Made by a program: the position numbers and the translations under genes
Notes under the pieces: model-generated
The model's input: only the letters and a program-made list of their open reading frames with translations
What the model was told of the DNA's origin: nothing
Database searches by the model: none
Source of the DNA: Thermococcaceae archaeon
Lineage (GTDB): Archaea > Methanobacteriota_B > Thermococci > Thermococcales > Thermococcaceae
Length of the DNA: 42,063 bases
Assembly: GCA_030156945.1 (NCBI GenBank)
Contig: JASGLT010000017.1
Location: 1-42,063, forward strand
Direction of reading: 5' to 3'
In this document: piece after piece, positions 6,336-10,215 of the stretch
Numbering within the stretch: the stretch's first letter is position 1
How the letters are laid out: every line of letters starts with the position of its first letter

Positions 6336-7358
6336 TCAACGCTCCCACATTGCCAGCCTGACCAGCCCATCCATCAGCCCAGCTTCCCTGAGGACGGCCT
6401 TCAGGTTCCTGAAGCGGGAGCGCATGACGAAGAGCTCATAAAAGCCCTCCAGATTGCCCCAGTGCCCGTAGGCAGATAGCGCTATGTACATGACCTCCTT
6501 GGGCTTTAAAAGCCTGCCGAGGCTTTCGCTCAGGGCCTTCAGTCCGGGCCTTATCCTCTCCATCAGCCCCTCCCTCGCTATGAGGTGCAGCATCAGGTCT
6601 TCAACGGTGGGCTTCCTCCAGTCTATTAGCTCGTCCTGATAAGGCAGGCCTATTATCAGGGGGATTACCTCAGTGCCACCGACCAGGTAGCCCTCCCCAG
6701 ATTCCCTATATTCAAAGTCCGAGAGCCTGCCCAGTATTGAATCCAAAGCCGCCTCTCTGTTCTCGTCTATATCGACGGCAACCCCTATTCTGTCCACGGC
6801 AAAGGCAAAAACATCCATCGCCCTCAGGAAGTTTCCAAGGTTCCTCACAACGCCGGAGTTGCCCTCACTCGGGATTACGGCCACGTAGGTTCCGTCAGAC
6901 GACCTCTTGAGGATGTCGAAGTTGTCTCTCTCAAAGACGCGCTCGATGAAGGTCAGGTTGTAAGGGACTTCCCTGCTCTCCCTGAACTCAAAGAGCTTCT
7001 TGAAGACGGCTTTGAAGAACTTGGCGTCCGTCTTGCCCTCCACAAAAAGCACAGAGGTTCTAGCGGGCTCCCCCGAGAAACCACCCCTGACGTCAAAGTC
7101 CAGGTATTTCCTGAGCTCGTGGACTTCCTTGAGTGTGAGGGACTTGCCGGTATCCGAATAGATAAGAACGTTCTCCTCCCCCTTTTTGAACCTCCGGGCA
7201 ATGAGGTCAAGGAGCTCAAGGCTCGCCGTTACGATAGTCTCGTCTCCCCTGAGTGAACCCACGAGCTTCTCCAGTTCCTCCCTGTTCTTCCCGTATTCGG
7301 GAAATAGAAGAGCATCTTCCGCATACCTTTCCCACTTCTTCCCAGTAACTACCCTCAT
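6336..7358 (-). CDS. TOPRIM-like protein of unknown function (DUF3226-like)
   Basis: 340 residues. The N-terminal 100 residues are mainly helical. The segment [14 protein letters not shown] (about 105-118) fits a TOPRIM first strand with its conserved Glu, and [13 protein letters not shown] (about 197-209) fits the D-x-D part, so a metal-binding fold of the kind found in topoisomerases, primases and OLD nucleases is likely. The C-terminal 100 residues are helical. The ATG follows GGTGAAGTGA and begins immediately after the TGA of the membrane protein gene upstream, so the two are almost certainly translated together. I recognise the family only loosely. Whether it is a nuclease is not shown. 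Confidence 0.7.
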
Positions 7359-7892
7359 TCACTTCACCATGTCAACAGCTATTGCGCCAACTATCGCGAA
7401 GGTGCTCGTTATTACCGTCGCGCTGAGGTACTGAGGAAGCGTGAACTCAGCCAGCCTGTTTATGCCGTAGAGGTATATCATGCCCGCAGAGACCGTGTAG
7501 GAAATAATGGATACGGTTATCAGCCTTTTTGGCACATGGAACACTTCCTCAGCCCTTATGTTCCCAATTCTGGACTTCGCTATAAGACCATAAGCTATCC
7601 CCATCGTGAGCAGAAAAATTGCAAAAGCTCTCCAGAGCGAAATTTCTTTGGCCACGTCCCAGAGTTCAGACGTGAAGAGGAAGGGGAGGGCGAAGGTTAC
7701 AGCCCCAACAAGCTCCTGAACTATGTCGTCCAGTCCCAGGGAGTCCGGTTCGCTTCTGCGCTCCTCCGCCCTGGCTATAGCCCTAACCTGCTTTTCGATC
7801 TCTTCAAGTCTTCCGTCTATCATCTTAAACCTCTCTGAGTCCCGCTCAGGTTCGGGGGTCATCATCTTTTCAGCATTGGATTCACTCATCAT
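7359..7892 (-). CDS. DUF2391-like integral membrane protein
   Basis: Up to 177 residues. The first 55 are charged and partly coiled-coil (RLEEIEKQVRAIARAEERR). Four membrane helices follow (about 63-78, 87-107, 123-145, 152-175). The family resembles DUF2391/TIGR02587, of unknown function. The start is uncertain: ATG at 7892 or 7889 lacks a Shine-Dalgarno site, and a TATA box at 7919-7926 would start the RNA only a few bases upstream, so a leaderless start is likely. The first 50 bases also form a C/D box RNA pattern (7842-7897). The stop codon abuts the start of the TOPRIM-like gene. Confidence 0.7.
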   Translation of the reverse strand: MMSESNAEKMMTPEPERDSERFKMIDGRLEEIEKQVRAIARAEERRSEPDSLGLDDIVQELVGAVTFALPFLFTSELWDVAKEISLWRAFAIFLLTMGIAYGLIAKSRIGNIRAEEVFHVPKRLITVSIISYTVSAGMIYLYGINRLAEFTLPQYLSATVITSTFAIVGAIAVDMVK

Positions 7893-7897
7893 CGCGG
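7842..7897 (-). ncRNA. Candidate C/D box sRNA (2'-O-methylation guide)
   Basis: Read on the minus strand the order is stem CCGC (7897-7894), G, box C ATGATGA (7892-7886), a 12-nt guide (7885-7874), box D' CTGA (7873-7870), a 4-nt spacer, box C' ATGATGA (7865-7859), a 9-nt guide (7858-7850), box D CTGA (7849-7846) and closing stem GCGG (7845-7842). All four boxes are perfect, the ends pair, and the 56-nt size is right for archaeal C/D RNAs bound by L7Ae, Nop5 and fibrillarin. A TATA box about 26 nt upstream puts the start near the CCGC. The second guide is short (about 12 is usual). It overlaps the 5' end of the membrane protein gene. No target was assigned. Confidence 0.6.
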
Positions 7898-7918: not shown

Positions 7919-7926
7919 TTATAAAG
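7919..7926 (-). promoter_or_regulatory. TATA box for the C/D sRNA candidate and the DUF2391-like gene
   Basis: On the minus strand the element reads CTTTATAA. Standard spacing puts initiation near 7895-7897, the 5' end of the sRNA candidate and 3-5 nt before the first ATG of the membrane protein. Confidence 0.5.
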
Positions 7927-7992: not shown

Positions 7993-10215
7993 ATGGTCGT
8001 CAAAGATTGTCCCGAGTGTCATGGAACGGGCAAGGTAAAAGCTGGCGAGAAGGAGTGCCCCGTTTGCGAGGGCTGGGGATACGTTCCGGCTGACTTTAAG
8101 ATTGGAGACAAGCTCAAGGGTTACAGGAACCTGGATCACCTCGGCGTGGAGGACGAGGTTGACGAGATACCCTGTCCCGAGTGCCACGGGAAGGGTACTG
8201 TCCCAGTTTACGACACCTGTCCGACCTGTGGGGGAACCGGGAAGATTCTCGCCTGTGACATCTGCGGAAAGATAAAAGAACCATGGGAACCGGGTATGGA
8301 GACGACGTGGGTCTGCCCGGACTGCCTTAGAAAGTACAAGGTCGTTTACATCCTCGATAAGACCTGTGACTATGAGGACGTCGAGGTTGGCAGCCTGTAC
8401 AAGGGAACGATTGACAGGGTGGAGCGCTTCGGAGTCTTCGTCAAGCTCAACCCCCACGTCACCGGCCTGATCAAGAGGAAAGACCTCCTCGGCGGGAGGG
8501 AGTACAAGCCCGGCGACGAGATAGTCGTGCAGGTTCTCGACGTGAGGCCGGACAAGAGGGAAGTTGACCTTATCGAATCGGCCCTCAGGAACTACAAGAC
8601 GGTCATTGTCAGGAAGGAGCTTCCGGTCACTCCAATAGCCGAGCTGAGCAAGGAAATGGCCGGAAAGACCGTCAGGATACAGGGAAGGGTTACCCAAGTT
8701 CAGGTGACCGGCGGACCGACTGTCTTCACCATAACGGACGGAACAGGAATTACATGGGCGGCCGCCTTCGAGGCGCCCGGAGTCAGGGCTTATCCAAACA
8801 TCAACGTCGGAGATATCGTCGAAATCATCGGCAAGGTGGCCTTCCACTCGGGCGAGATACAGATCGAAGTCAGCGACATGACAAGGCTCTGGGGGCCGGA
8901 TGCAGCGAGGGTGAAGCAACAGATAGAGGCCGAGCTCGACAGGAGGGCACAGCCGGAAGACGTTGGCTTCTTGGTGGAGAGCGAGGTTCTTGAGAAGCTC
9001 AAGCCGAAGATAATGAAGGCCGCCTTCATGATAAGGAGGGCAATCCTGGAGGGAAGGCCGATACTCCTGAGGCACCACGCCGATGCCGACGGCTATACAT
9101 CCGGTCTTGCGCTGGAATACGCTATAGTCCCGCTCATCGAGAAAGTCTCGCCCGACTCCCAGGCAAGGTGGAAGCTCTTCAAGAGGAGGCCAAGCAGAGC
9201 TCCGTTCTACGAGCTGGAGGATGTGCTCAAGGACATCATATTCATGGTCGAGGACCACGAGAAGTTTGGCGACCCGCTTCCGCTCCTCGTAATAGTTGAC
9301 AACGGCGGAACGAGTGAGGACATTCCGGCCTACAAGCGCATTCGCGCCTACGGCGTCCCGATAGTGGTGATAGACCACCACGACCCACGCGAGTGGGTGA
9401 GCGAGGATAAGGCGAAGGTGGACGACTACATTGACGTCCACGTCAACCCGCACCACGTCAAGCGCGGCTACTACGAGCTTACAGCAGGAATGCTCGCTAC
9501 CGAAGTTGCGCGCTTCATCAACCCCGAGGTCGAGGACAGGATAAAGCACCTTCCGGCCATAGCGGGAACCGGCGACAGGAGCAAGGCTCCGGAGTTCTAC
9601 CAGTATCTCGAGATAGCGAAGAAGGCGAAAGGTCTCGACGAGGAAGACCTGAAGAAGATAGCCGAGGTCATCGACCACGAGGCCTACTTCTGGAAGTTCA
9701 TGGACGGGCACGGAATCATTGATGAGATACTCCTCCTGACCCGCAACCTACAGAGGCACCGCGAGCTCATCAACGCGATTTACCCGGAGGTCAAGGAGAA
9801 GCAGGAGAAAGCGCTGAAAGCTTCCCTGCCGCACGTCAAGAGTGTCGTCCTGCCGAACGGGATAAGGTTCAACACTATAGATGTGGAGCTGTTCGCGCCG
9901 AAGTTCAGCTATCCGTCTCCAGGCAAGCTCTCCGGCTTAATCCACGACCACTTCAAGGAGAAGTACGGCGAGGACTCGCCGATACTGACCTTAGCCTACG
10001 GACCGGACTTCGCGGTGGTTAGAGCGAGCGACGGCATGGCTGCCTACGGCTTCGACCTCAACGCGATAATTCCAAAGCTCCAGGAGAAGCTTCCGTCAGC
10101 CGGAATCGAGGGCGGTGGGCACAGCTACGCTGGCTCGATAAAGTTCTTCGAGGGCATGAGGAAAGAAGTCCTCGAGGAGTTCGCCAAGGAAGTCGTGAAG
10201 CTTAAGAGGGTTTGA
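7993..10215 (+). CDS. DHH family nuclease with DnaJ-type zinc finger, S1 and OB domains (HAN-like)
   Basis: 740 residues. Residues 1-115 hold repeated CxxCxG pairs (CPECHGTG, CPVCEGWG, CPECHGKG, CPTCGGTG) and further CxxC pairs, a DnaJ-type zinc finger. An S1 domain (about 125-195, GSLYKGTIDRVERFGVFVKL) is followed by a second OB fold (about 215-295, GKTVRIQGRVTQV). The DHH phosphoesterase core begins near 345 with HHADADGYTSG, continues with LVIVDNGG and VIDHHDPREW, and ends in a DHHA1-type domain with GGGHSYAGS. This combination resembles the Thermococcus Hef-associated nuclease HAN, a RecJ-like 3'-5' single-strand exonuclease; I am less sure of that name than of the domains. The ATG at 7993 is preceded by GAGGTGAG; an in-frame GTG at 7984 is less likely. 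The gene stands alone. Confidence 0.85.
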   Translation: MVVKDCPECHGTGKVKAGEKECPVCEGWGYVPADFKIGDKLKGYRNLDHLGVEDEVDEIPCPECHGKGTVPVYDTCPTCGGTGKILACDICGKIKEPWEPGMETTWVCPDCLRKYKVVYILDKTCDYEDVEVGSLYKGTIDRVERFGVFVKLNPHVTGLIKRKDLLGGREYKPGDEIVVQVLDVRPDKREVDLIESALRNYKTVIVRKELPVTPIAELSKEMAGKTVRIQGRVTQVQVTGGPTVFTITDGTGITWAAAFEAPGVRAYPNINVGDIVEIIGKVAFHSGEIQIEVSDMTRLWGPDAARVKQQIEAELDRRAQPEDVGFLVESEVLEKLKPKIMKAAFMIRRAILEGRPILLRHHADADGYTSGLALEYAIVPLIEKVSPDSQARWKLFKRRPSRAPFYELEDVLKDIIFMVEDHEKFGDPLPLLVIVDNGGTSEDIPAYKRIRAYGVPIVVIDHHDPREWVSEDKAKVDDYIDVHVNPHHVKRGYYELTAGMLATEVARFINPEVEDRIKHLPAIAGTGDRSKAPEFYQYLEIAKKAKGLDEEDLKKIAEVIDHEAYFWKFMDGHGIIDEILLLTRNLQRHRELINAIYPEVKEKQEKALKASLPHVKSVVLPNGIRFNTIDVELFAPKFSYPSPGKLSGLIHDHFKEKYGEDSPILTLAYGPDFAVVRASDGMAAYGFDLNAIIPKLQEKLPSAGIEGGGHSYAGSIKFFEGMRKEVLEEFAKEVVKLKRV

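Follow-up and report, generated by a model that had tools for sequence, protein, structure and literature searches.

The sR46 family of archaeal box C/D sRNAs was first described in Pyrococcus. It is catalogued in Rfam (RF01130), and both the family and the kind of overlap between sRNA and protein-coding gene considered here are already known. According to PMC7994747, maturation of archaeal C/D sRNAs is possible in diverse genomic settings, with a model of protection by bound proteins followed by trimming, and overlap of a C/D sRNA with the 5' end of an ORF is described there as lowering expression of the downstream gene. In the survey of Tripp et al. (2017), as summarised in the same source, about 7% of archaeal C/D sRNA genes overlap the 5' end of an ORF, and the start codon is found most frequently in a guide or after the D box. 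For T. kodakarensis, 12 snoRNAs are placed within 5'-coding regions (PMC4247193). In the L7Ae-autoregulated leaders, L7Ae represses translation of its own mRNA by binding a k-turn in the 5' UTR (PMC5539422).

The locus described here lies in a stretch of 42,063 nucleotides from a Thermococcaceae archaeon (contig JASGLT010000017.1 of assembly GCA_030156945.1), the whole of which is referred to as the window. It has in common with the 5'-overlapping C/D genes of Tripp et al. (2017, via PMC7994747) a candidate start codon within the sRNA and a probably shared promoter, but differs from them in that the C box itself opens the reading frame, as it does in every one of the 49 intact genes of one clade. 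The 12 T. kodakarensis snoRNAs, which are likened here as a group, represent the same kind of arrangement in the same genus (PMC4247193). With the L7Ae-autoregulated leaders the locus shares a k-turn close to the 5' end, where it could obstruct a start codon (PMC5539422), whereas sR46 here has both guides of a full C/D RNA and its rRNA match is conserved.

A complete box C/D sRNA of 56 nt, checked letter by letter, occupies positions 7842-7897 of the minus strand. Read 5' to 3' on that strand, it comprises a stem strand CCGC (7897-7894), a C box ATGATGA (7886-7892), the 12-nt D' guide GTGAATCCAATG (guide 1, 7874-7885), a D' box CTGA (7870-7873), a C' box ATGATGA (7859-7865), the 9-nt D guide CCCCCGAAC (guide 2, 7850-7858), a D box CTGA (7846-7849) and the closing stem strand GCGG (7842-7845). 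These are the features by which archaeal box C/D RNAs are recognised, with C (RUGAUGA), D' (CUGA), C' and D (CUGA) boxes in order, two guides and a terminal stem. The original prediction had proposed perfect boxes in this order, the CCGC/GCGG stem and the 56-nt length without naming a strand, and all of these are present. The covariance-model search that it recommended, performed on both strands of the whole window, identified the element as Rfam sR46 (68.2 bits against a gathering cut-off of 50; E = 7.4e-14) and as the sole Rfam match in the window at the gathering threshold. The match is full length (model positions 1-56 of 56), with matched window positions 7844-7896. That sR46 already stands in Rfam had not been mentioned in the prediction. 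Compared with RF01130, the boxes and guide 1 are the same, while guide 2 of the window is three bases shorter and has no match to the 16S site of the sister genera.

When RF01130 was sought in 94 Thermococcales genomes, sR46 was found in 89 at E<=0.001, and 85 of the 94 lay over the gathering cut-off. It is present in all 74 genomes of at least 90% completeness and at most 5% contamination, and the five genomes with no match (G052-G054, G082 and G083) are 53-82% complete. The surroundings of all 89 best matches were compared, with the loci designated by L numbers and by group (g1, which is Thermococcus, to g6). The C box is ATGATGA in 81 of the 89 loci, the D' box is CTGA in every locus, and the D box is CTGA in 81 and CCGA in 8. 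The remaining C boxes are ATGACGA or ATGAGGA, all of them in g3; these loci (L016-L018 and L021-L025) are the ones with a CCGA D box, and both of their guides are intact. A terminal stem of 4 bp is not general, being found in 18 of the 80 loci outside g3 (the window included), with 3 bp in 42 and 2 bp in 20. Seven genomes (G018, G019, G025, G033, G044, G058 and G063) have a second sR46-like match of 29.8-34 bits, below the cut-off, which is perhaps a related C/D sRNA.

The sR46 of G024 (87729-87781), which was taken as T. kodakarensis, is absent from Table 1 of PMC9014305, a table of circular RNAs only. sRNAs with short stems are described in that source as mostly not circular, a remark that fits the two-base stem of sR46 at L020, the T. 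kodakarensis-like locus. The RNA called 'sR46' in PMC9014305 is another locus (1371729-1371790) under another numbering, and the mention of sR46 for T. tenax in PMC4644070 likewise follows a different numbering.

The ten-base core of guide 1, TGAATCCAAT (7875-7884), is identical in 89 of 89 loci and forms 10 bp with a single 16S site, once per genome, in each of the 10 genomes that have a 16S sequence. The letter before the core is G in 67 loci, A in 16 and C in 6, and the letter after it is G in 76 and A in 13; these two flanking letters are the only variable ones in guide 1 and are exactly those left unpaired with the target. The N+5 rule, by which the modified base is the one facing the fifth guide nucleotide before D', places the predicted target at G962 of 16S rRNA (E. 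coli numbering), at which guide 1 is predicted to direct 2'-O-methylation. The strand of the 16S sequences passed a motif test (10/10) and that of the 23S sequences was set by shared 15-mers. No 16S or 23S match was found in the window's own assembly, so the target site for its guide 1 is taken from relatives.

Guide 2 has the form CCCCAGAGTGG in 9 of 9 g3, 7 of 7 g5 and 7 of 11 g4 loci. In the five such genomes with 16S (G004, G012, G073, G077 and G086) this form matches CACTCTGGGG of 16S over 10 bp, with U1148 as the N+5 target, and it is the older form of guide 2, that of the sister genera. Guide 2 of Thermococcus is 9 nt long, with 18 different sequences among 58 loci. Comparison with 23S from 16 genomes and 16S from three gave no shared target: the longest contiguous matches were 6-8 bp at sites that differ, and one 23S had no match of 6 or more bp. 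The U1148 site is still present in all three Thermococcus genomes tested. As no 16S or 23S match is shared, guide 2 is regarded as an orphan in Thermococcus. A target for guide 2 is not needed to pass the sR46 cut-off and so does not define the model. The search for guide targets covered 16S and 23S, and there are 42 tRNA matches in the window's own genome. The matching of guides to rRNA that had been suggested was thus successful for guide 1 and, for 16S and 23S in Thermococcus, unsuccessful for guide 2.

The C box supplies codons 1-2 (ATG ATG), and the C' box codons 10-11, of an ORF of 177 codons (7359-7892, minus strand) for a DUF2391 membrane protein (PF09622, 40.2 bits against a cut-off of 22), which agrees with the earlier description of a DUF2391-like ORF whose ATG ATG is the C box. 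A TGAATG junction joins it to a DUF3226 gene (6336-7358, minus strand; PF11536, 54 bits), placed second in the operon with the support of synteny, and sR46 appears to head an operon of the form sR46-DUF2391-DUF3226. The divergent neighbour on the other side (7993-10215, plus strand) encodes 740 amino acids with S1, OB and DHH domains and an N-terminal DnaJ-like zinc motif; its nearest NCBIfam model is HAN (Hef-associated nuclease), at 659.5 bits, below the cut-off of 840.

The state of the first gene was assigned by hand at all 89 loci. DUF2391 is intact and in frame with the C-box ATG in 53 (48 in g1, one in g2 and four in g4) and is cut by a contig end in one more; in seven (six in g5, and L029 of g4) it begins after the sRNA in another frame; in eight it is truncated, broken or a remnant; and in 20 there is no DUF2391 near sR46. 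A genome-wide search with the window's DUF2391 protein in 22 genomes, mostly from gene-less or broken loci, gave no match in 20, and the two matches were both partial and both in the sR46 neighbourhood. DUF3226 lies downstream in 75 of the 89 loci whatever the state of DUF2391. Of the loci without DUF2391, it has been kept in all four from g1, both from g2, the one from g6 and two of the three from g4. It was beside sR46 in none of the nine g3 loci, in which neither DUF2391 nor DUF3226 was found there. In 12 loci lacking a full DUF2391 (10 with none, two with a remnant), the DUF3226 start lies 58-330 nt beyond the C box and is preceded by SD-like pairing of -7.4 to -10.9. These patterns indicate that DUF2391 is a dispensable first gene and that sR46 is not dispensed with. 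DUF3226 seems to be the operon's steadier protein gene, staying by sR46 after loss of DUF2391. At the g5 loci L003, L008, L011, L012, L013 and L015, the TGA of the C-box frame overlaps the gene start (ATGAGTGA), an overlap that would allow translational coupling.

It might be proposed that the boxes constitute a cis-regulatory leader that binds L7Ae, as in the Sulfolobus l7ae mRNA, and that there is no trans-acting guide. L7Ae does repress translation of its own message through a 5'-UTR k-turn (PMC5539422), and PMC4247193 raises the idea for some predicted sRNAs in leaders. However, the invariant part of guide 1 coincides exactly with the bases paired to 16S, and a k-turn leader would have no need of such conservation. 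In addition, sR46 has been retained where the first gene is absent or differs, and also in g3, where DUF2391 and DUF3226 were not found next to it. A purely cis-regulatory leader was rejected on these grounds, and we consider it highly improbable.

Constraint on the nucleotide sequence could also be compared with that on the protein. In the 49 intact genes (g1 together with L082), mean entropy at codon positions 1, 2 and 3 is 0.212, 0.123 and 0.165 bits in codons 1-15, against 0.517, 0.230 and 1.188 bits from codon 101 to the end, and third-position entropy is 1.19-1.31 bits from codon 37 to the end. In 21 sister pairs chosen by rule, synonymous divergence (pS) is 0.041 in codons 1-15 and 0.230 from codon 61 to the end. 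The boxes, then, do not vary freely at synonymous sites, and the suppression of synonymous change over sR46 indicates that the stretch is conserved as RNA. Together with the Rfam match, the order-wide conservation and the match to 16S, this upholds the original view of a real C/D guide RNA. It is conceivable that the apparent C/D boxes arose by chance from coding constraint acting on the peptide MMSESNA..MM at the N-terminus, since both ATGATGA boxes are in the frame of the ORF. Against this stand the Rfam E-value, third positions in codons 1-15 that are as conserved as the first and second, and the retention of the D' box and guide 1 where the C-box frame is closed. This explanation, to which we attach a negligible probability, was rejected and is refuted as far as sequence allows; on the same evidence sR46 is far beyond chance occurrence.

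A TATA element, TTTATA (7920-7925, minus strand), lies 33 nt before the A of the C box, in keeping with the prediction of a TATA box placed for a start at the stem, and in most loci the best TTTATA match is 30-36 nt ahead of the C box. TATA boxes of T. kodakarensis are reported at a median of 23 bp before the transcription start (PMC4247193) and those of T. onnurineus at -30 to -20 (PMC5316973). From the TATA spacing, transcription is predicted to start at about 7894-7897. Because the upstream gene is divergent and no TATA-like element was seen by eye between the sRNA start and codon 24, one promoter probably serves sR46 and DUF2391, whichever start codon is used. A shared promoter and a protein start further downstream had originally been offered as alternatives. 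The first probably holds either way and the second is supported in the window and many relatives, but the opposition between them does not stand, as the two are compatible.

In the window, an in-frame ATG at codon 24 (7821-7823, minus strand) is preceded at a distance of 5 nt by an SD-like GAGGT (7829-7833, minus strand), whose duplex with the 16S tail has an energy of -7.4, among the best 3.1% of 2279 background positions. The corresponding energy for the C-box ATG is -0.3, at the 64th percentile of background. The codon-24 ATG is therefore the likelier main start in the window, and the C-box start may act as a second. Use of the C-box AUG is possible, and conservation of its frame, together with the six genomes that offer no other usual start, argues for it. 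An alternative account, which we think possible but unlikely, makes the C-box AUG the true and sole start of a leaderless mRNA, so that the boxes nucleate the sRNP and also encode the first 16 residues, and each transcript serves either as guide or as mRNA. The predicted leader of a few nucleotides would fit the leaderless class, which accounts for about 14% of mRNAs in T. kodakarensis (PMC4247193).

Several observations favour a sole C-box start. Across the 49 intact genes of g1 and L082, the C-to-D distance is always 43 nt and the gene is read in the C-box frame; a distance of 43 nt also persists at five g1 loci whose genes are decaying. Where g1 has lost the gene entirely (four loci), the distance is 42, 42, 42 and 47 nt, and the frame closes after 9-16 codons. 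Three independent length changes all fall on gene-less branches, which make up 14% of rpoB tree length (p = 0.0026, computed after the pattern was seen); with decaying-gene branches added the share is 21% and p = 0.0093. The tree, which represents one domain with 88 tips, places some genomes oddly (G010 beside G085), and this makes any count of independent losses approximate. Aligned codons 12-45 contain no ATG, GTG or TTG in six of the 49 intact genes, from three lineages, which suggests that the C-box or C'-box ATGs can be sole starts. In two of the genes with no alternative start (L037 and L081), SD-like pairing of -8.5 lies before the C-box ATG itself, in an element that the predicted transcription start would leave out of the mRNA.

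Other observations are at odds with a sole start in the C box. In seven relatives (the six g5 genomes and L029) the gene can start only after the sRNA; in L029 the frame to the C box is broken, and a start at +76 has SD pairing of -8.0. An ATG stands at aligned codon 27 in 25 of the 49 intact genes. Among 11 pairs with this ATG, chosen by hand as were nine without it, codons 18-26 hold 26 nonsynonymous and 6 synonymous differences (pN/pS 1.34) and codons 27-36 hold 19 and 24 (pN/pS 0.16), a contrast with Fisher p = 0.0018. Both rates in codons 18-26 are low against adjacent synonymous change, as expected of a constrained leader. Amino-acid constraint thus sets in at codon 27 in the lineages that have this ATG, at which SD pairing is weak (mostly -4.6, 15th percentile). 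Downstream SD-like elements also argue against a sole C-box start: besides that of the window, there is one of -7.7 at an ATG at codon 21 in the four intact g4 genes, and in 12 of the 49 genes an in-frame CTG at codon 22 has a near-perfect GAGGTG (-11.5 to -12.8) six bases ahead of it. Among these 12, one also has an ATG two codons earlier. The CTG, at +63 from the C box, belongs to L020, L026, L028, L030, L036, L038, L040, L043, L058, L072, L075 and L078, and L070 has ATG at +63. It is possibly a near-cognate start or a lost ancestral ATG, and is noted here with no start claimed.

The explanation that best accommodates the family assignment, conservation, pairing, synteny, frames and substitution pattern, all of which were observed directly, is that a functional sR46 guide forms the 5' end of an sR46-DUF2391-DUF3226 transcript, and we regard it as quite probable. 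Judged by the spacing, transcription from the promoter at 7925-7920 would begin just a few bases ahead of the C box, which would leave the sRNA's 5' end with little or no need of processing. L7Ae, Nop5 and fibrillarin would assemble on the C/D and C'/D' motifs, the 3' part would be trimmed off, and guide 1 would direct methylation at 16S G962. Transcripts escaping capture in the sRNP would act as mRNA; in the window, their translation would most likely begin mainly at the codon-24 ATG that follows GAGGT, leaving the sRNA as a leader. Leaderless initiation may also occur at the C-box AUG, which lies in frame some 5 nt from the predicted 5' end, and would yield an N-extended form. The start of transcription, the processing, the methylation, the choice of start codon and the either/or fate of the transcript are its predicted parts. 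The protection and trimming model of PMC7994747 fits this arrangement, in which one promoter would suffice, with the guide made by capture and trimming and mRNA arising from the transcripts that escape.

Much more tentatively, and in our view improbably, the C-box AUG could be a genuine leaderless start and the k-turn held by L7Ae the site that the ribosome must open, so that each transcript makes a one-way choice between guide and mRNA and the internal length of the sRNA is frozen in steps of three in this clade. If so, expression of DUF2391-DUF3226 would be tied to free L7Ae and ribosomes.

Our literature search returned nothing that joins sR46 with DUF2391; supplements lay outside its reach, so prior appearance in print is possible. 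The order-wide, lineage-by-lineage interlock of boxes, frame and gene start may nevertheless be new. The Thermococcales offer an order-wide natural experiment, with the same sRNA found beside a gene opened by its C box, a gene that begins just after it, or a gene that has been deleted, and the cost and rules of overlap between sRNA and ORF are testable in a tractable archaeon. The annotated starts of such Thermococcus genes may be off by about 20-26 codons.
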